This document shows, in pieces, positions 18,655 through 30,051 of a DNA stretch of 48,427 nt. Numbering within the stretch: position 1 is the first letter of the stretch; every line of letters starts with the position of its first letter. Location: positions 1 through 48,427 of the forward strand of contig JAUTCQ010000023.1 in assembly GCA_030673845.1 (NCBI GenBank), in the 5' to 3' direction. Position numbers and translations under genes: made by a program. The notes beneath the pieces are model-generated. The model saw nothing but the letters and a program-made list of their open reading frames with translations. It was not told the DNA's origin and searched no databases. Source of the DNA: Verrucomicrobiota bacterium JB022 (GTDB taxonomy: Bacteria > Verrucomicrobiota > Verrucomicrobiia > Opitutales > Oceanipulchritudinaceae).

Positions 18655-19209
18655 ATGAAAGTCTGCTTCACCTCCGTTCTGGCCCTCTGCATCATGCTCG
18701 CCTCGGCGGAGGCGGCCGTCACGGGCTCCGTCACCCCCTACAGCAGCCGCAGCGAGCTGATGGGCAACCTGGAGAAAGCCTTTGCCGTGCATGAAGCTCC
18801 GGCCAAGGGCGAACTCGAGTTGAGCAACCCCTTTGCCCCGCCTGCCGTTCCGGTCTTTCAGGCGGCAGCGCCACAGGCCGCTGCTGCGGAGGCCAAGCCT
18901 GCGGCCCCCCCGCCACGCCTCGCTGATTCCGTGGCTGTCGTGGCCGTAGCCGATACGCTCCAGCCTAACGGAAGCACCGTTGGTTTGGGGCGCGCATTTT
19001 TGCTGCTAGATAATAACCGTCGCCTAGAAGAGGGTAAAACCATCAGTGCAACTATCCAGGGACAAGCCTATGAAGTCATCCTTGCTGAAGTCACGATGAG
19101 CTCCTATACCCTTCGTTTGGGTTCCGCTAGTGTCACGCGCCCAATCACTTCCATTACCGACCCTCAACGCATCAAGCGCTCGGTCGATCCTGCTACCTCT
19201 GCTGAATAA
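18655..19209 (+). CDS. PilP/GspC-like periplasmic protein
   Basis: The 184-residue protein begins with a signal peptide (MKVCFTSVLALCIMLASAEA). Its middle part is rich in Ala and Pro (residues about 60-90, a flexible linker). The C-terminal 90 residues (VAVADTLQPNGSTVGLGRAF followed by EEGKTISATIQGQAYEVILA) form a small beta domain, similar to the HR region of GspC and PilP that contacts the secretin. PilP is usually a lipoprotein, but I see no lipobox cysteine. Its place between the pilO-like gene and the secretin gene supports the role. Two bases separate its start from the pilO stop region. Confidence 0.6.
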   Translation: MKVCFTSVLALCIMLASAEAAVTGSVTPYSSRSELMGNLEKAFAVHEAPAKGELELSNPFAPPAVPVFQAAAPQAAAAEAKPAAPPPRLADSVAVVAVADTLQPNGSTVGLGRAFLLLDNNRRLEEGKTISATIQGQAYEVILAEVTMSSYTLRLGSASVTRPITSITDPQRIKRSVDPATSAE

Positions 19210-19252
19210 TCCCTACGCACCTCTGCATTCCTTCCTTTCTGATTCCTGCGCC

Positions 19253-20995
19253 ATGAAGTTTCTGCCTTATGTTATCCTGTCTGCAGCCTCGTTTGCGACC
19301 GTGCAGTCGCTGGTTGCCCAGGCACCCGATGCCGGTTCTGTCACCCGCACGCCGGCCGCGCCGGCCCTGCCAGAGCAGTCGGTCGACATCCCGACCGACG
19401 AGGTCTACCTCGATTTGCCGCCCGCTGGGCAGCCCGTTCAAAGCATGAACCGGGAAGCGGAAACGATCTCCGTCGATTTCCCGGATGAAGACGTGCGCAA
19501 CATCATCCGCAACGTCGCCGAGCTTTATGAGCTCAACGTCGTCATCCCCGAAGAGCTGACGGGGCGCGTGAGCCTCCGCCTGCGCAACGTCACCTGGCGC
19601 CAGGTCTTCGACGTGATCCTGCGCCCGCTCGATTACACCTACGTGATCGAAGACAACATCATCATGGTCAAGAGCTTCAGCGACATTGAAGCCGAGCCGA
19701 CCGTGACCCGCGTCTTCGTCATCTCCTTTGCCGACGCCACGGCCCTCAAGGCCACGATCGACCCGCTGGTGCAAACCGAAGCCGGCGGACGCATGCAAGT
19801 CGACCAGCGCAATAACGCCTTGGTTGTGACGGAGCGCCCCAGCAAGATGGACGAGATCCAGGAGATCATCGACTTGCTCGACCGCCCCAACAACCAGGTG
19901 ATGATCGAGTCCAAGTTCGTGGAAATCTCCGGGCGCGACCAAAAGAACATCGGCATCGACTGGTCGGGCGCACTCGGTGGCTCCACCGGCTTTACCGCCG
20001 GGCCCTTCAACCGCACCTACGAAAGCGAATACGAGCGCGAACGTGGCTCGACCAACGAAAGCACCAGCCAGTCGACCAATACGATCAACAACGGCAATTT
20101 CAATTACAACACCTCCGACGCGCAGACGTCCGAGTCTGTGTTGGGGCGGACGGATACCGACACCTGGAGCGATACGGCGGTATTCTCGGCGGACGCCTTC
20201 CGAGTGGTGGTCGGGGCGCTGCAAAGCAACTCCGGGGTGGAGCTGGTTTCCAACCCGACCGTTGTGACGATGAACAACCAGCCGGCGGAGATCCTCGTCG
20301 GCCAGGAATACCCCGTCGTCTCGACCCGCTTCAACCCGCAAACCGGCACCTACGAGGCCGACGAAGCGGAATACAAGAACATCGGTATCCAGATGATGGT
20401 GACGCCGAGCGTCAACTCGGCCGGCTTCATCACCCTCAACGTCGAGCCCGAAGTCTCCAGCCTCGACGGCACCGTCACGCAGCTGAGCGCGAGCTACCCG
20501 ATCATTTCCACCCGCCGCACCCGCAGCGTCGTCACGATCAAGGACGGTTACACCCTCGCCCTCGGCGGCCTGATCGAACGCCGCGAACAAGACGGCAACA
20601 CCCGCGTCCCCGTGCTCGGCAAAGTGCCCGTGCTCGGCCGCCTCTTCCGCAACGACACGGGTGACTCCGAGCGCCGCAACCTCGTGATCTTCATCACCGC
20701 CAAGGTGCTGAGCGCCAGCGGGGCCACCTACCGCGACGTCTTCTCGCAACGCCGCCTGTGGGAGATGGGGATCAACCAGCGCGACTTGCCCGGCTACCAG
20801 CCACCGGCGGCCGAAGACGCCCTCTTTGACTCCATCCAGGAGCGCGCCGAAACGCTCGAGCGCATGGATGCCGAGACCCGCCTCCAAAAGCAGCTCGAAG
20901 AGCTGAGCGAGCAAGAGCGCAAGCTGCAAGAAAAGGCCGCCGCCGACAGCTCCTCCGAGCTGGAGCGCGAAGTCCCGCGCCGCAACCAACCCTAA
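19253..20995 (+). CDS. pilQ: Type IV pilus or type II secretion secretin, PilQ-like
   Basis: From ATG 19253 the product is 580 residues with signal peptide MKFLPYVILSAASFATVQSL. Residues about 72-140 (VDFPDEDVRNIIRNVAELY) form the N0/STN domain, residues 150-220 the N1 domain (VFVISFADATALKATIDPLV), and residues about 320-490 the secretin barrel (VELVSNPTVVTMNNQPAEIL, ALGGLIERREQDG, NLVIFITAKVL). The C-terminal tail from about residue 520 is a charged coiled coil (ETLERMDAETRLQKQLEELS). Secretins form the gated outer-membrane ring for the pilus or pseudopilus. The in-frame upstream ATG at 19130 gives no signal peptide, so I rejected it. Confidence 0.9.
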   Translation: MKFLPYVILSAASFATVQSLVAQAPDAGSVTRTPAAPALPEQSVDIPTDEVYLDLPPAGQPVQSMNREAETISVDFPDEDVRNIIRNVAELYELNVVIPEELTGRVSLRLRNVTWRQVFDVILRPLDYTYVIEDNIIMVKSFSDIEAEPTVTRVFVISFADATALKATIDPLVQTEAGGRMQVDQRNNALVVTERPSKMDEIQEIIDLLDRPNNQVMIESKFVEISGRDQKNIGIDWSGALGGSTGFTAGPFNRTYESEYERERGSTNESTSQSTNTINNGNFNYNTSDAQTSESVLGRTDTDTWSDTAVFSADAFRVVVGALQSNSGVELVSNPTVVTMNNQPAEILVGQEYPVVSTRFNPQTGTYEADEAEYKNIGIQMMVTPSVNSAGFITLNVEPEVSSLDGTVTQLSASYPIISTRRTRSVVTIKDGYTLALGGLIERREQDGNTRVPVLGKVPVLGRLFRNDTGDSERRNLVIFITAKVLSASGATYRDVFSQRRLWEMGINQRDLPGYQPPAAEDALFDSIQERAETLERMDAETRLQKQLEELSEQERKLQEKAAADSSSELEREVPRRNQP

Positions 20996-21031: not shown

Positions 21032-24000
21032 ATGAATTTGCATCTACCCAAGCTCCAGCACCGGAGCCTTGTGGGCATGCTGGGGTGCAGCCTTGCCGCA
21101 CCTCTGCTCCCGGTCGTGCAGGCCGATACCCTCGAAGCCGGCGACAACTACGTCATGGTCATCACCGAGTCCGGCGAGCTCTGGACCTGGGGGACCAGTG
21201 CCACCGGAGGCTTGGGCCTCGACACCGCGACCACGGCGATCAACCCGACGCGCGTGCTGGGCGACCGTGAATGGCTCGATGTCGCCATCGGGGCCGACCA
21301 CACGGTGGCGATCGCGGCCGACGGCTCGCTGTGGGCCTGGGGCAGCAATGCCAGCGGCCAGCTGGGCACCGGGGGCACCGACGACCGACGTGTGCCACAA
21401 CGCATTGGCTACGACAACGACTGGAAAGACGTCGACGCGACGGGCAGCTACACGCTGGCCCTGAAGTCCAATGGCGTCCTCTACGGCTGGGGCAGCAATA
21501 ACAACGCACAGCTCCTGCGCAGCCCGTCGACTTTTCCGCGTCAGCTCTCGCCCCTGATCCTGAACGATTCCCGCAACTCACTGTCGGGGGTAAAGATCAC
21601 CGCCATGTCGGCCGGGGTAAACCACGTGCTCGCCGTCGACAGCGAAGGCCGTCTGCTGGGGTGGGGCTTGAACGCTTCCGGCCAGCTCGGCATCCCCGGC
21701 CTGCCGGCGCTGCCGAGCCAGTCGGTGCAAGTCATCAGCACCGATCCCAAGTGGGTGTCGGTCGAGGCAGGCGCCGTGCAGTCGTTCGCCCTCGACAACC
21801 AAGGCCAGGTCTATGCTTTCGGCTACGGCACTCTTGGTAGCCTTGGCCTCGGAGGCACCTCGACGGCTTCTACGCCGACCCGGGTTCCCTTCCCGGCGGG
21901 CGTCCAGATCAAGAGCATCAAGATGGACCGCGCGACCCCTACCCATGTGGTTGCGATCAGCACGGAAGGCGACGTCTATGCCTGGGGCGCCAATACCCCC
22001 GCTTTCGGCCAGTTGGGCGTCGACCTGTACGACGACTACGACCGGGTGATCTCGGCCAATATGCAGTTCTCCAGCCCGCAAAAGCTGGTGGACAAGGCGG
22101 TATTCGTCGAAAACGTGGCCCAGCTCGACTTTACTGAAGTTGCGATGGGCGATGAATTTACGCTGTTGCGGGCGGGGGCTAGCCAGCTCTACGCCACGGG
22201 CAGCAACGCAGCGAACCAGCTCGGCACCGGCCTCGGAGCAGGCGGCAGCAACGTCTTCCTGCGCGTCCCTCTCGGCATTCCGGATATGGTCGCGGAAGCA
22301 AGTCTCTCGGCCAACGAAACGCCCTACATCAGTGGCACTTTCGATCTCAGCCTGACCTTGTCGAACATCGGCTCCGGGCCCCTGCCGAGCAATTCCGGCC
22401 TCGAAATCGCCCTTTACCTGAGCGAAGATCCCAACTTCTCCCGCGATACGGATGTGCGCCTGCCGGTGGCCCTGGGGGCGGACCGCCCGATGCAGGAGCT
22501 TGGCAACGAGATCGTCTACAACAACTCGCTCGCGGGCAGCAACCAGCGTGTGTTGACCGCTTCGGTCGGTCTGCCTGCCGATCGTCTCCGCGCGGGCACT
22601 TATTACCTCTTTGTCGATGTGAATGGAGAGGGGACGACGCTGGAGGCCAACCTGGACAACAACACCTTCCAGGTTGAAGAGCCCCTGAGCTTCACGCCCG
22701 ACCTTTCGGTTGTCGCCACCCTCACGGTGCCCGATGCGCCGGTAAATGTCGGCGAAACCATCGCGCTCAACTACACGTTGGCGAATGGCGGGACCGCTCA
22801 GGTGGTCGAAGGCACGACCCTGCAGGCTTTCTACCAGTATCTCGGCACGGCGACCGGCACTTCCACCACGGCTGACAAGGTAGCGGTGGGGCCAATCCAA
22901 GCGGTGGAAGGGCCCATCTTGCCCAATAGCTCGACGACGGGGACGCTCAACTTGGTCCTGCCCAGCATCAGCGCGGGCAACTACCGCTTTGGCATCTTCG
23001 TCGATCCGGCGAACCAGGTCGAGGAGATCAGCGAGGTCAACAACGAGTCGACGGACAACCGCCCGGGCCGCTACGTGCAAGTCCTGCTGTCGAACGATGG
23101 GAGCAATAACTTGAAGGAAGGGGCCGATTTTACGGTCCAGCCGGCACCGACGAGTGAGGACGGGCAGTTGCGTTACCTGAACCCCAATACCATCCGGTTC
23201 AACCCGGCGGCGGGGGCTCAGTGGCAGAACACCACTGCTCTCGACGCGATCCAGAACGAGCCCAACAATGAGGTGCAGCCTTACACGCCCGAAGGTGATA
23301 ACGCGCTGATTCCTCAGCCCGGGTTGGTCGCAGGTCAGAGTGCCTCCTTCGAAATCGAAGTCACCGGGCCCTTTGTCGTGGAGTTCGTCTGGGGCCTGGC
23401 TGCCACCGAAGCAGGGATCGACAATTTCAACGATTCGATCACCTTCACGATCGACGGCGCTGCCCCCTTCGGCTTTGAAGATCAGGCGGTAATTTCAGGC
23501 AATCAAGGGTGGACCGCTTACCGCCAGCTGGTTGAAAAAGGCGCGACCCCGCGCAAGCTGCGCTGGACTTACACTCGCGGCACCGGCAGCCCGGCAGCCT
23601 ACGCCTTTGTTGACCGCATCGTCGTGCGCGAAGAGCTCCGCCCCGACTTGACGGTCGAATCGGTCGAGTACAACTCGCAGAACATCGAGCTGTTCATCCT
23701 GAAGAGCCATCAATACCTTGATGTCGTCATCAACGGCATCAATGCCGGGGCAGCGATGGAACCCGCTGGAGGTTCCCACTTCTTCGATACGGAGGTTCGC
23801 CTTTCGCGAGACAAAGTGTGGGGCAACTCCGACGACGTCATTCTCGGCGTGCTTGAAGAGTTGCAGGATCTCGACGGTAACGGGCGCTTTATATACGGGC
23901 AGGACTTCGACATGAACTTCTGTATGCCCGACGGCGAATATTACCTCGCTGTCTACGTGGATAGCACCCGTCGCTATCGCGAAATCAACGACGAGACGGC

Positions 24001-25696
24001 AGATGAAATCCTGCGTAATACCGCCGGGTGGCCTTTGTATGCCTATACCGATGAGGAGACAGGTCAGATTACCAACCTGAATACGGAACAGCGCAACGGG
24101 GCTTGGGGCATCGTCAATCCCTTCGACGGCAACACCTTTGTGCAGATCGCGAACCGCTATACGGGCACATTGGCGAGCTCGATCAATGGTGTGCGACTTC
24201 GCTACGCTCCGGAGACGAACAACAACATCTGGTTTTCCGACGAGCCCGACATCGTGATCGAAGGGCGCCCGTATCTCGAAGTAAATGACCTTGTTTACCG
24301 ACCCGGTATTTACTACCGCGAGAGCGAGTGGGCCTTTACCTTCAACCTCGAGAACTCAGGTTGTAAAGACTTCCTGCCGGGCTCGGAGGCCACTCTGGAA
24401 ATCTCTCTGGCTGGCTATGACACTGCTCGAGAATCGGTCGAAGGCAGTTCTACCATTCCGGCAACCACATTTACAGGGAACGGGAGTTTGGACCGCGTCG
24501 TTGCGACGGTACGGGATGTTCGAGGCCTGCCGCGAGGCACCTCCGCGCCCTTCCGCAGCAGCCTGCGCATCCCCAAATACAATGAGGCTGCCGTTTCGTC
24601 TTATGCCGGCATCGAACCGAACCCGGACGAAACCTACATTCCTCCCGTTTTCCCAGCCTTCTCCGTCAGCCGCCCGGAAGAAGAAGGAGAGCCGATTAGC
24701 TACCTGCCGCTGTCAACCATTGGAATTACCGATACGATCCCCGGGGATCAGGCTCCTTGGCGATTGGACGGCAATCAGAACTTCGTCGATCCGAACGTAC
24801 TTCGTTGGCCAATGTTCTTCTTCCCGTCTAACGCATTGGTCGGAGGCAGCCCTTATTCGCTGTTCTTTACGCGAGAGCCGGCCGCGTTTGCGCCCCGCTT
24901 CACGATTACCGCCAATGTGCCGCTGGCAGTCGATGAACTTCAGTTGACGTTTACGGCCGGCATCTTCGTTGATGTGACGCCCCCAAGGCAGACCCTGCGT
25001 CAATGGCAGACTTTCTGGAATATCCAGCGGGAGATGCCCGACTTCCTTCGTCAGGAATCTGCCGCATTTGCCAACAATGATGAAGGGTTGGGCTTGCTCG
25101 ACAACTTTACGGTGCCTCTCAGCTCGGGTATCGGCCTCGACTATGTGGGCCAAGGCGCTTCGAGCATTGCAGAAATCCTTGCTCTGGATCCCGATGGAGA
25201 CGGCTATACGAATGCGGCTGAGTGGGCCTTCGTGGCCAATCCGTTGAAAGCCGATCTGCCGGGAGCTCTGGTGGCGACCGATCTGGTGGTGGAAGACCAA
25301 AACGGGACTTCCGCAGAATACCTCCAGGTCACGTTCAATGCCCTGTCGGATTATTCCAATTCCAGCTTTATCTACGAAGTTTGGGCTTCGGACTCCGCTC
25401 GCTTCAATGGCTTCGAGGAGGATGCTGCTACCAATACGGTCCGTTTGCTGCATTACGACCCGCGGGCCGGTGGAAACGCTGATAATGCGGAGCATCTGCG
25501 CACCTTGCGCCCTGCCGTCCAGGCCGTCATCCACAACGGCTACAGCTACCGGATTACGGTGCGCGATGTGGAGGCTCTTGGCAAGGACGCCAGCGGCAAC
25601 CTGACTCAGGCGCGCTTTATCAAGGTGATGGCCTATTACATCCCGGACTCGGAGTTCGCTGACAAGACGCCCTTCAACGAGGGCGCCAGCGAATAG
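21032..25696 (+). CDS. Giant secreted RCC1-repeat and CARDB-domain protein
   Basis: The 1554-residue product has a signal peptide (ending near PLLPVVQA). Residues about 33-410 are RCC1 beta-propeller repeats, for example GSLWAWGSNASGQLGTGG and GVLYGWGSNNNAQL. From about 430 there are several CARDB-like immunoglobulin folds: around 435-560 (SLTLSNIGSGPLPSNSGLEI), 560-690 (DLSVVATLTVPDAPVNVGET), 870-1000 (RPDLTVESVEYNSQ) and 1080-1190 (RPYLEVNDLVYRPGIYYRES). Near residue 1385 is LDPDGDGYTNAAEW, a calcium-loop motif common in large PVC secreted proteins. RCC1 propellers and CARDB domains are interaction or adhesion modules. It follows the secretin by 36 bases and is ended by a strong terminator, so it may be cargo or surface partner of this machine. 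Confidence 0.85.
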   Translation: MNLHLPKLQHRSLVGMLGCSLAAPLLPVVQADTLEAGDNYVMVITESGELWTWGTSATGGLGLDTATTAINPTRVLGDREWLDVAIGADHTVAIAADGSLWAWGSNASGQLGTGGTDDRRVPQRIGYDNDWKDVDATGSYTLALKSNGVLYGWGSNNNAQLLRSPSTFPRQLSPLILNDSRNSLSGVKITAMSAGVNHVLAVDSEGRLLGWGLNASGQLGIPGLPALPSQSVQVISTDPKWVSVEAGAVQSFALDNQGQVYAFGYGTLGSLGLGGTSTASTPTRVPFPAGVQIKSIKMDRATPTHVVAISTEGDVYAWGANTPAFGQLGVDLYDDYDRVISANMQFSSPQKLVDKAVFVENVAQLDFTEVAMGDEFTLLRAGASQLYATGSNAANQLGTGLGAGGSNVFLRVPLGIPDMVAEASLSANETPYISGTFDLSLTLSNIGSGPLPSNSGLEIALYLSEDPNFSRDTDVRLPVALGADRPMQELGNEIVYNNSLAGSNQRVLTASVGLPADRLRAGTYYLFVDVNGEGTTLEANLDNNTFQVEEPLSFTPDLSVVATLTVPDAPVNVGETIALNYTLANGGTAQVVEGTTLQAFYQYLGTATGTSTTADKVAVGPIQAVEGPILPNSSTTGTLNLVLPSISAGNYRFGIFVDPANQVEEISEVNNESTDNRPGRYVQVLLSNDGSNNLKEGADFTVQPAPTSEDGQLRYLNPNTIRFNPAAGAQWQNTTALDAIQNEPNNEVQPYTPEGDNALIPQPGLVAGQSASFEIEVTGPFVVEFVWGLAATEAGIDNFNDSITFTIDGAAPFGFEDQAVISGNQGWTAYRQLVEKGATPRKLRWTYTRGTGSPAAYAFVDRIVVREELRPDLTVESVEYNSQNIELFILKSHQYLDVVINGINAGAAMEPAGGSHFFDTEVRLSRDKVWGNSDDVILGVLEELQDLDGNGRFIYGQDFDMNFCMPDGEYYLAVYVDSTRRYREINDETADEILRNTAGWPLYAYTDEETGQITNLNTEQRNGAWGIVNPFDGNTFVQIANRYTGTLASSINGVRLRYAPETNNNIWFSDEPDIVIEGRPYLEVNDLVYRPGIYYRESEWAFTFNLENSGCKDFLPGSEATLEISLAGYDTARESVEGSSTIPATTFTGNGSLDRVVATVRDVRGLPRGTSAPFRSSLRIPKYNEAAVSSYAGIEPNPDETYIPPVFPAFSVSRPEEEGEPISYLPLSTIGITDTIPGDQAPWRLDGNQNFVDPNVLRWPMFFFPSNALVGGSPYSLFFTREPAAFAPRFTITANVPLAVDELQLTFTAGIFVDVTPPRQTLRQWQTFWNIQREMPDFLRQESAAFANNDEGLGLLDNFTVPLSSGIGLDYVGQGASSIAEILALDPDGDGYTNAAEWAFVANPLKADLPGALVATDLVVEDQNGTSAEYLQVTFNALSDYSNSSFIYEVWASDSARFNGFEEDAATNTVRLLHYDPRAGGNADNAEHLRTLRPAVQAVIHNGYSYRITVRDVEALGKDASGNLTQARFIKVMAYYIPDSEFADKTPFNEGASE

Positions 25697-27614: not shown

Positions 27615-28265
27615 ATGGCATCTTTCAGCTCCTCAATGGCTTTGACCGGCACACTCGACAAGGCGGCGACTACTTCATCTGCACCTGTGACCAGTGCGGA
27701 CGAGGATTGGTCGTACGTGGAGCGAGTGCAGGCCGGCGATGTGGCGGCCTTTGATTTCCTCGTCACCAAGTACCGGGAGCGTCTCTTTTCGATCGTCTAC
27801 AACATGACGTCGAACCGGGAGGACGCTGCCGACCTGACGCAGGAAGCCTTTATCAAGGCCTTTTCGTCCATCAAGCGCTTCCGCGGCAAGTCCTCGTTCT
27901 TCACGTGGCTTTACCGCATCGCCGTCAATACCACCCTCAGCCAGCTGAAAAAGCACCGCTTGCGCCGCTTCTTCAGCCTGGAAAACCTGCACGACGAAGC
28001 CACTTCTTCGGAGATTGTCGAAACCCTCTCCGAGGGCGGCAAGGCGGAGCGTCGCAGTTTGGCCAGCGAGCTGCAGGAAAAATTGAACGAAGCGCTTCAG
28101 AAGCTGTCTCCTAAGCATAGAACGGTCGTGGTCCTTTTCGAAATCGAGGGTCTTAGCCACCAAGAGATTTCGGAGATCATGGGATGTTCTGTCGGGACGG
28201 TCCGCTCACGCTTGCATTATGCCAAGCAACAGCTCCAGGCCTACCTGCAGGACTATATCCGCTGA
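27615..28265 (+). CDS. ECF sigma factor (RpoE-like)
   Basis: The 216-residue protein has the ECF sigma layout: a short extension (residues 1-30), then sigma region 2 (VERVQAGDVAAFDFLVTKY, SNREDAADLTQEAFIKAFS, GKSSFFTWLYRIAVNTTLS) that binds the -10 element and core polymerase, a linker, and region 4 (LQKLSPKHRTVVVLFEIEGL, HQEISEIMGCSVGTVRSRLH) that binds the -35. It directs RNA polymerase to a stress regulon. A putative anti-sigma gene follows after 10 bases. The upstream gap has a repeated ACCGGG motif but no convincing auto-promoter. Cognate promoters elsewhere in the genome would reveal the regulon. Confidence 0.93.
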   Translation: MASFSSSMALTGTLDKAATTSSAPVTSADEDWSYVERVQAGDVAAFDFLVTKYRERLFSIVYNMTSNREDAADLTQEAFIKAFSSIKRFRGKSSFFTWLYRIAVNTTLSQLKKHRLRRFFSLENLHDEATSSEIVETLSEGGKAERRSLASELQEKLNEALQKLSPKHRTVVVLFEIEGLSHQEISEIMGCSVGTVRSRLHYAKQQLQAYLQDYIR

Positions 28266-28275
28266 CCGTCCTCTG

Positions 28276-28923
28276 ATGCTCATGCCGGAAAACAAGCCAC
28301 AACCTCGTATCGCGGTCGAAGACCTGCTCCAGCTCAAGCGAGCCGAAAAGCCTGATCAGGCTTTCTGGCAGGATTTCGATCGTCAGCTCCAGGAACGCCG
28401 CCTCCGCCTCTTGATGGATCGCGAGGACCCCACCGCAGGGTGGGCACGGGGCTGGATCCGCTGGAGCTTCCTGGCTGGCACACCCGCCGCCGCCACCGCC
28501 TTTTTGTTTGGCTTCGGCATCCTGCAGTTGCCTGTCACCGCCTTCAACCCGTCCGGCACGCCCGGGCAGACCGATGAAGGAGCGACGGCCTCCGCGCCCC
28601 GCCCGGCTGGTCAGCCCCTGCAGGCTTCGTCCTTCGGCCCGGCGGTGACTGCGCTGGCGATGGATCTGCCGACGCCTTCGCGCGAGCGCCCCGCCGAGCT
28701 GGCTACCCCGAGCGCCAGCAACCGGATCGACTTGATGTCGTCTTTTGTGTCGTTTGCCAACGATGCGCTTTCCGGTGAAGACGCCACTACGGGCAGCTTC
28801 CGCAAGATCATGGCCCCCACCTCGCTGGTATCCGAACCACGGCCCAGCTACCAGTATGTGGCGGAGCCGTTGACCTCCAACGAGGTGGACACCAGGGCAC
28901 ACCGCAGTTCGGAACTTTTCTAG
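28276..28923 (+). CDS. Single-pass membrane protein, candidate anti-sigma factor
   Basis: From ATG 28276 (or 28282) the product is about 215 residues. Residues 1-60 are charged and helical (EDLLQLKRAEKPDQAFWQDF) and would be cytoplasmic. One transmembrane helix lies at about residues 61-85 (WIRWSFLAGTPAAATAFLFG). The rest is a low-complexity exported tail without known domains. I find no HxxxCxxC zinc anti-sigma motif. Its place directly between the sigma factor and the HtrA-like gene, and its topology, match anti-sigma factors such as RseA. The family is not recognised from sequence, so this role is inferred from context. Confidence 0.6.
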   Translation: MLMPENKPQPRIAVEDLLQLKRAEKPDQAFWQDFDRQLQERRLRLLMDREDPTAGWARGWIRWSFLAGTPAAATAFLFGFGILQLPVTAFNPSGTPGQTDEGATASAPRPAGQPLQASSFGPAVTALAMDLPTPSRERPAELATPSASNRIDLMSSFVSFANDALSGEDATTGSFRKIMAPTSLVSEPRPSYQYVAEPLTSNEVDTRAHRSSELF

Positions 28924-28929
28924 CAGCGT

Positions 28930-30051
28930 ATGCGGTGGCTCTTGATGATGATAGCCGCTCTTTGGGGAGTTGGTTCAGGGTCGCCCTTGTTTGCCCAGGA
29001 TTTTATGGCGCTCCAGCGCCGCATGGTGGAGCTGTATGAGCAGCACTCGCACTCCATCGTCCGCGTCAAGGCCGCCTATCCGTCTTCCGGGCCCGACGAC
29101 ACCCCACGCGTGCTGATCGGCACGGGCTTCTTCATTTCCCGCGAAGGCCATGTGCTGACCAATGCCACCGTGGTGCAAAAGCCCGAGCGCGCCTGGGTCG
29201 AGCAAAACGGCGTCTCCTATGCCGCCGATGTGGTGGGCATCGACGAAAGCAGCAACCTGGCGCTGCTCAAGGTCCGCGACCTGCCGCCCCGCTTCAATTT
29301 CTTCCACTTGGCCGATACGCCGGAGCTGCCGCCGGTGGGCACCATCCTCGTCCGGATCAGTATGCCGTTGGAGTTTGGGCCGTCGCCCAGCCTGGGCCTC
29401 GTTACCGGCTACGAATCGCGGTTCGCCCAACGCTTTTTCCCCTGCAAGTTTATGCGCACCTCCCTGCCAGCCGGCCCGGGCGAGGGTGGTGCCGCCTATA
29501 TCGACCTCAGCGGTCGCCTGGTGGGCATGCAGACCTTTTCCTTGCCTGAGATGGGCGCCACCTATGCCCTGCCGGCCCGGGCGGCCCTGCGCCTGCGGGA
29601 CGACCTGCTTTTCAACGGAGAGATCGGTTATGGCTGGATCGGCTTCGAGATCCGCATCGAGAGCGACCGCGAGCGCGGCGCACGCCTGGTGATCGATAAG
29701 CTCGTGCCTGAGACGCCCGCTACCAACTCCGGCCTTGAGCCCGACGACGTGCTGATCGAGATCGGCGGCTATGAGATCCATACGCTCGACGATCTACGCA
29801 ACGCCATGTTCTACTCCCGCGTAGGCACGTTTACCGACATCAAGGTGCGCCGGGGCGATGTCGTGAAGGAATTTTCCGTGCAAGTGGCCAAGCGGCCCAA
29901 AAACGAGCCGCTGGAGATCGTGACCCGCATGCCCCGGCTCGACGGCGAAGTCTCGCCCATCCGCCGCCCCAGTGAGCCGCCCGAAGATTCGATGATCCTG
30001 CCCTTCAGCGCCGAAATGCCGCTCCCCATGATGCCGGCGGAAGGCCAGTAA
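28930..30051 (+). CDS. HtrA/DegS-like protein lacking the catalytic triad, with PDZ domain
   Basis: The 373-residue exported protein (signal peptide ending near SPLFAQ) aligns along the whole HtrA trypsin-like domain: IGTGFFISREGHVLTN, VVGIDESSNLALLKV and GRLVGMQTFSLPEMG. The three catalytic positions are replaced: Thr80 in LTNATVV for His, Asn109 in SSNLALL for Asp, and Gly186 in PGEGGAA for the Ser of GNSGG. A PDZ domain follows (about 235-322, LVPETPATNSGLEPDDVLIE). It should thus be a pseudoprotease. It starts 6 bases after the candidate anti-sigma gene. A likely part is to sense envelope damage by PDZ binding and hand the signal on without cutting. A Pro-rich tail ends the protein. Confidence 0.85.
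   Translation: MRWLLMMIAALWGVGSGSPLFAQDFMALQRRMVELYEQHSHSIVRVKAAYPSSGPDDTPRVLIGTGFFISREGHVLTNATVVQKPERAWVEQNGVSYAADVVGIDESSNLALLKVRDLPPRFNFFHLADTPELPPVGTILVRISMPLEFGPSPSLGLVTGYESRFAQRFFPCKFMRTSLPAGPGEGGAAYIDLSGRLVGMQTFSLPEMGATYALPARAALRLRDDLLFNGEIGYGWIGFEIRIESDRERGARLVIDKLVPETPATNSGLEPDDVLIEIGGYEIHTLDDLRNAMFYSRVGTFTDIKVRRGDVVKEFSVQVAKRPKNEPLEIVTRMPRLDGEVSPIRRPSEPPEDSMILPFSAEMPLPMMPAEGQ

Follow-up and report, generated by a model that had tools for sequence, protein, structure and literature searches.

A catalytically degenerate HtrA homologue beside a presumed anti-sigma factor with an outer-membrane-protein-like C-terminus: a possible binding switch in Verrucomicrobiia

What can an HtrA homologue contribute to an ECF sigma factor locus once its catalytic residues have been replaced? 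The question is raised by three consecutive genes of Verrucomicrobiota bacterium JB022, whose 4.35 Mb genome is available in 25 contigs; the window, meaning the whole stretch of DNA analysed here, comprises 48,427 nucleotides of contig C23. The initial annotation had recognised the order sigma factor, single-pass membrane protein, HtrA-like protein. The interval that it gave, 28276-30051, is correct as it stands and leaves the sigma gene outside (Table 1). The three ORFs are separated by 10 nt (sigma/middle) and 6 nt (middle/HtrA-like), with a polyprenyl synthetase gene before the cassette and a fumarase C gene after it. The sigma gene product contains the Pfam domains Sigma70_r2 and Sigma70_r4_2, which identifies it as an ECF sigma factor of the kind found in RpoE-RseA-DegS systems; against TIGR02939 it scores 159.3 bits, below the cut-off of 236.15. 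No clear common ECF-type promoter element was discerned by eye in the aligned regions upstream of the sigma gene from 16 loci of the window's family. Elsewhere in the window, positions 21032-25696, directly after a secretin gene (19130-20995), encode a 1554-aa protein that combines RCC1-like repeats with a CARDB domain.

Table 1. Positions in the window of the cassette genes and of the protein features discussed in the text.
Feature	Position	Strand	Basis
ECF sigma factor, RpoE-like by best NCBIfam match (under the model's cut-off)	27615-28265	+	Pfam, NCBIfam
Middle protein, presumed anti-sigma factor, predicted single-pass membrane protein, 215 aa, end ...SSELF	28276-28923	+	Order conserved, one hydrophobic peak
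N-terminal motif of middle protein, K21..E24.P26...F30W31..F34	28336-28377	+	Alignment of 51
Predicted transmembrane stretch of middle protein, residues 65-83	28468-28524	+	Kyte-Doolittle maximum 1.68; helix 52-83 in AF2 fusion model
E-L-F C-terminus of middle protein, candidate PDZ ligand	28912-28920	+	F/Y in 120/125 relatives
Pseudo-HtrA (pHtrA), 373 aa, degenerate protease domain and one PDZ	28930-30051	+	Pfam, alignment, AF2
T80 of pHtrA at catalytic His position	29167-29169	+	His in 0/132 orthologues
N109 of pHtrA at catalytic Asp position	29254-29256	+	Asn 91, Gly 28, Asp 1 of 132
G186 of pHtrA at catalytic Ser position	29485-29487	+	Gly 63, Ser 22 of 132
G235-W-I-G-F239 of pHtrA, PDZ carboxylate-binding loop	29632-29646	+	Alignment with DegS GYIGI

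By its Pfam matches (Trypsin_2, 64.2 bits; PDZ_2, 43.7 bits) pHtrA has the domains of the HtrA (Do/Deg) family, and by eye its N-terminus resembles a signal peptide. Its AlphaFold2 model (pLDDT 91.3, pTM 0.82) was grouped by Foldseek and VIA-align with DegP, DegQ, DegS and AlgW, the best structural row being a DegP chain (Z 31.4, rmsd 2.6, 289 aligned). In alignments with E. coli DegS and DegQ, T80, N109 and G186 occupy the positions of the triad His, Asp and Ser, and the same correspondence was obtained with DegP/DegQ-type PDB chains, some of which are Ser-to-Ala mutants. The triple loss proposed in the initial annotation therefore holds in alignment and on a predicted fold of the DegP/DegQ type, and the PDZ domain that it had described as kept is indeed there, the loop glycine G238 being present in 131 of 132 orthologues drawn from the order and the wider class. 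In the His column these orthologues, one of which (L136) is a partial match within a 1133-aa frame, have Ser in 63 cases, Asn in 18, Thr in 11, a gap in 13, and others. No orthologue retains two residues of the triad together. An intact triad at this locus was sought and is absent from all 132, and none was seen to gain a His/Asp/Ser set by a shift of the alignment; this explanation was ruled out, a His lying within 3 columns of the His column in only 3 rows. As a positive control, 14 of 14 paralogues from the window's family, two of them from the window genome, read H-D-S in the same columns. Hence pHtrA lacks the His-Asp-Ser triad of the HtrA family, and the cassette lacks the active HtrA protease that is the sensor in RpoE-RseA-DegS systems. 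Judged by its residues, pHtrA is an HtrA by fold and descent and not an HtrA protease; it would presumably be devoid of proteolytic activity.

Some other degenerate sites were noted. In genus g9, L015 and L017 retain the catalytic Ser with His and Asp lost, and L016 is without the Ser. The window genome encodes a second trypsin-like protein with a broken triad (L292, G000:C24:109622-110074, minus strand; 248 aa), which has His, Asn and Ile in the three columns and no aligned PDZ loop. In a genome of family f14, a Trypsin_2 match under the cut-off (L295, G112:C10:41521-41730) has Gln in place of His and Asn in place of Asp, again with no PDZ loop aligned, and lies about 1 kb from the H-D-S HtrA L285.

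An orthologue of pHtrA was found in 16 of the 17 genomes of the window's family, the exception (G001) being 80% complete. The order sample yielded one in 86 of 132 genomes at E below 1e-39, and all 76 matches outside the window's family were retrieved. Of the 188 genomes in the class sample, 89 gave a match at E 1e-38 or better; 11 of these belong to the window's order, one of them (G134) with an active HtrA as its match, and 40 of the 80 matches in other orders were retrieved. The gene order claimed for the window proved general: a sigma gene precedes pHtrA on the same strand in 124 of 132 loci, a middle gene in 125, and 124 loci have both. The eight loci without a sigma gene comprise two contig ends (L107, where the middle gene is still visible, and L184), the partial match L136, a locus with neither gene in reach (L095), and four with an unlinked pHtrA, three in family f17 (L121, L122, L126) and one in G122 (L132); in all four of these genomes sigma and middle genes stand together at another place. 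This order is maintained across the 46 families sampled, and we regard the three genes as one old regulatory cassette of the class.

With a broader profile, the matches in the phylum sample fell into two sets, one extending to 1e-86 and the other starting at 7e-63, and 20 further matches from both sides of this gap were examined. Eighteen are H-D-S, with sigma and middle genes absent from the stretch retrieved. The remaining two, L236 (G304) and L237 (G453), are pseudo and have adjoining sigma and middle genes; G304 is assigned to a different class of the phylum, whereas G453 is an f14 genome with the full cassette. In a tree, 34 pseudo and 20 active proteins are split by one 100/100 branch, which is present in all 200 bootstrap trees. 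This pattern fits a single loss of activity close to the root of the class or slightly earlier; a series of losses on the same stem may also have occurred.

The initial annotation had read the loss of the triad as selected rather than neutral, and this view is supported. The loss is class-wide and lies on one side of one tree branch, the frame appears to be under purifying selection (dN/dS between the window and the same-genus locus L004 is 0.20 for pHtrA, 0.34 for the middle protein and 0.06 for sigma), and the position of the gene is kept even in family f30, where little of the protease domain is left. This erosion in f30 is what speaks for a protease on its way out. Such decay is nevertheless very improbable and was rejected, given the dN/dS value, the intact frames, an identity of 46-58% between genera of the window's family and the conserved order.

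The middle protein was chosen by profile in 118 of 125 loci, by position only in six (L151, L152, L154, L155, L162, L182) and by hand in L099, where the profile gave a short frame-shifted piece; in L174 the profile's pick of two candidates was used. Its description as a single-pass protein is supported as a prediction: there is a single hydrophobic peak in 102 of the 125 relatives, and in 122 a hydrophobic stretch averages at least 1.3. Lys and Arg are more abundant before than after this stretch in 102 of the 125, suggesting an N-in topology. In an RpoE-RseA-DegS type system its place would be that of a membrane anti-sigma factor of the RseA family; one transmembrane segment is predicted in most relatives, and no Pfam or NCBIfam family was found for it, 51 relatives giving only stray weak matches of one member each; this lack of a family match argues against an anti-sigma role. 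Mean column identity is 23% (51 rows), the exceptions being K21, E24, P26, F30-W31, F34 and the last residue. K21, P26 and W31 are invariant in 51 of 51 aligned sequences, and E24, F30 and F34 are found at 90% or more. The region of this N-terminal motif is probably the cytoplasmic part that binds sigma. Of the 125 proteins, 75 have a second, periplasmic motif, [YF]V.[DEGS], within their final 60 residues; at its place the window has 28846-28857 (residues 191-194, SYQY), where the fusion model described below has a short strand.

The strongest clue, absent from the initial annotation, is the near-universal terminal Phe or Tyr of the middle protein. Its last residue is F in 100 of the 125 cases, Y in 20 and another in five (N, N, K, M, I), and 42 of 46 families have F or Y without exception. 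In the same loci a terminal F or Y is found in 1 of 124 sigma factors, 3 of 130 pHtrA proteins and 20 of 466 other long ORFs (stop to stop, 200 codons or more, non-overlapping, with the sigma and pHtrA genes included in the count). Residue -3 is mainly hydrophobic. The Omp85 proteins of the same genomes (11) end in F in 18 cases and Y in one among the strongest 19 of 24 matches; the middle protein thus ends like the outer-membrane proteins of the same genomes.

On the side of pHtrA, the loop in Table 1 aligns with GYIGI, which we take to be the carboxylate-binding loop of DegS, and position 294 is F or Y in 131 of 131 orthologues. Both halves of a PDZ-ligand pair can accordingly be read from the sequences, a carboxylate-binding loop in pHtrA and a hydrophobic C-terminus on its neighbour. 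According to PMC8545111, the PDZ groove of AlgW and DegS, at whose end lies a G-X-G motif, takes up the terminal aromatic residue when WVF or YQF peptides bind, and C-terminal YxF peptides are ligands of the DegS PDZ; the YTF end of seven middle proteins of family f2 fits this YxF signature.

Two further results are less favourable. The exchange of terminal F for Y covaries with pHtrA columns without enrichment of the PDZ (7 of the top 20 columns against 87 of 307; within the order alone 3 of 20); the top 20 does include loop columns 235, 236, 237 and 241, and clades act as a confounder of the comparison. An AlphaFold2 model of a read-through fusion of the middle protein and pHtrA (pLDDT 71.2) gave values under 50 for middle residues 83-188 and 201-213, and no docking of the tail on pHtrA was seen in it. 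Together with the five odd tails, these observations count against a switch based on binding of the tail.

Families that depart from the general pattern are informative. In f30, which we infer to be the Akkermansia family (Akkermansiaceae), a search with profile A2, built without f30 rows, found a pHtrA-like PDZ gene behind the middle gene in 18 of 19 loci (L299-L303, L313, L316-L318, L320-L328) at E 1e-14 to 1e-39. Nine of the frames have about 290-320 codons, four of them ending with the stretch; the nine proteins align along the whole of pHtrA and keep G187, P215, G238 and D273 in 9 of 9. Pfam scans of four gave Trypsin_2 below and PDZ above the cut-off in all four. Erosion of the protease part, with a PDZ-bearing gene still in place, speaks for the PDZ as the reader of the tail. 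A simple version of this reading is opposed by the tails of f30 themselves: in 8 of 18 middle proteins (the count leaves out G266, L320, whose middle gene had been mis-picked), all of one genus, the end is M, and a pHtrA-like gene follows all eight.

Family f14, probably Opitutaceae, also speaks against the simple version. All nine genomes retrieved have sigma and middle genes with no pHtrA in the stretch that follows, and all nine middle proteins terminate in F, OMP-like ends such as VSIKF being among them. In L257, L259, L260 and L261 the middle protein is longer, with an OMP-like KF tail, and a gene recognised by its N-terminus as fumarase follows directly, which suggests that pHtrA was lost from this interval. 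In six of the nine genomes, all 13 Trypsin_2 matches with an aligned PDZ loop are H-D-S; another PDZ may therefore read the tail there, and perhaps everywhere. If the terminal Phe marked the middle protein for an active HtrA or for some other PDZ protein, and pHtrA had a different client, f14 would be accounted for. We consider this unlikely; family f53, where no pHtrA match was found within roughly 0.9 kb behind the middle gene in any of six genomes, has lost the aromatic end in all but one of them (R in four, Q in one, Y in one), which speaks for a link between the tail and pHtrA. The expectation that terminal F is lost together with pHtrA was borne out in f53 (5 of 6 tails without an aromatic end) and failed in f14; it failed too in f17 and G122 with their unlinked pHtrA genes, F being kept in 4 of 4. 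Unlinked pHtrA genes may exist elsewhere in f14 or f53 genomes.

The active paralogues lead to a different proposal, in which pHtrA binds the anti-sigma tail and delivers the protein, possibly within mixed trimers, to an active HtrA, thereby speeding up cleavage. HtrAs with an intact triad do occur in the same genomes, and the predicted structure of pHtrA resembles the subunits of DegP/DegQ trimers. The hetero-oligomers are conjecture, however, and f14 keeps sigma and the middle protein without a linked pHtrA; we assign this adaptor function a rather low probability.

In E. coli, the gene for DegS, an active protease anchored in the membrane, lies apart from rpoE and sits between degQ and mdh. 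The E. coli RpoE-RseA-RseB-DegS system shares with the cassette an ECF sigma factor, a single-pass partner and a periplasmic HtrA-PDZ protein. It differs in that DegS is active and anchored in the membrane, whereas pHtrA has no triad and a signal-peptide-like N-terminus, and in that here the aromatic C-terminus is on the presumed anti-sigma factor itself. The gene order around M. tuberculosis sigE is a closer match than the likeness to RpoE-RseA-DegS drawn by the initial annotation. There, according to PMC10027907, sigE stands with rseA-htrA-tatB, in the same order sigma, anti-sigma, HtrA; the HtrA is an essential serine protease by that account, and sigE and rseA are not cotranscribed. In P. 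aeruginosa AlgW-MucE (AlgU-MucA-MucB), a dedicated envelope protein likewise uses its C-terminus, PMC8545111 describing how WVF of the periplasmic MucE is bound by the AlgW PDZ; AlgW is an active protease switched on by MucE, and MucE is not an anti-sigma factor. MamO of magnetotactic bacteria, as presented in PMC4794232, resembles pHtrA as an HtrA without proteolysis that is kept for another function; it differs in having Thr for the Ser nucleophile, in binding metal and in serving magnetite formation rather than a sigma cassette.

Pseudo-HtrAs (PMC4794232), the order ECF-anti-sigma-HtrA (PMC10027907) and dedicated C-termini read by a PDZ (PMC8545111) are each known separately. No literature on such a cassette was found in searches of open PMC articles. 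Within that literature, the combination of the three features in one cassette and the terminal Phe/Tyr of the middle protein are new here. It is also conceivable that pHtrA is simply a product of the sigma regulon, a periplasmic chaperone that makes no contact with the anti-sigma factor. HtrA proteins with an inactivated active site retain chaperone activity, suppress aggregation and rescue stress phenotypes, as PMC11642142 reports, and the reason for the place of M. tuberculosis htrA beside rseA is called difficult to understand in PMC10027907. This explanation leaves unaccounted for both the terminal F/Y of the neighbour and the f30 proteins, in which the protease domain is eroded with PDZ and gene position retained, and it appears improbable to us.

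The reading that we prefer, and to which we give an even chance, is a binding switch, in which the PDZ of pHtrA holds the OMP-like tail of the anti-sigma factor and thereby shields it, and unfolded outer-membrane proteins compete. It would give a concrete form to the sensing of envelope damage by binding alone that the initial annotation had suggested. The middle protein would be a membrane anti-sigma factor whose short helical N-terminus retains the ECF sigma factor in the cytoplasm and whose tail, in the periplasm, ends in an OMP-like aromatic residue. The secreted pHtrA would no longer cut; its PDZ would bind the free C-terminus of the tail and fix the anti-sigma factor in one state, most likely one shielded from the site-1 protease, which may be one of the active HtrA paralogues. 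Once site-1 cleavage had taken place, RseP would complete the cleavage and free sigma; as in RpoE-RseA-DegS systems, RseP is encoded here, with TIGR00054 above the cut-off in 9 of 9 genomes, that of the window included. Unfolded outer-membrane proteins, having the same terminal residue, would compete for the PDZ and in this way constitute the signal. Recognition of the tail by the PDZ is favoured by the conserved loop, the terminal F/Y in 120 of 125 relatives and the AlgW-MucE precedent, and also by the coincidence of pseudo status with the cassette, which both pseudo matches of the phylum sample have and all 18 H-D-S matches are without in the stretch retrieved. A more comprehensive version, namely that across the class the anti-sigma factor carries its own mimic of an OMP C-terminus to which the PDZ of a dead HtrA binds, that competition by OMPs senses stress and that in one family the fold has become a PDZ scaffold, is offered tentatively and may well prove too broad.

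In textbook sigma-E signalling, stress is sensed by regulated proteolysis. Here, in lineages throughout the class, the place of the HtrA sensor and its PDZ have been kept and the catalytic residues discarded, and the neighbouring protein has an OMP-like end. If the pair does bind, the sensing and the cutting steps of the pathway would have been separated by evolution.
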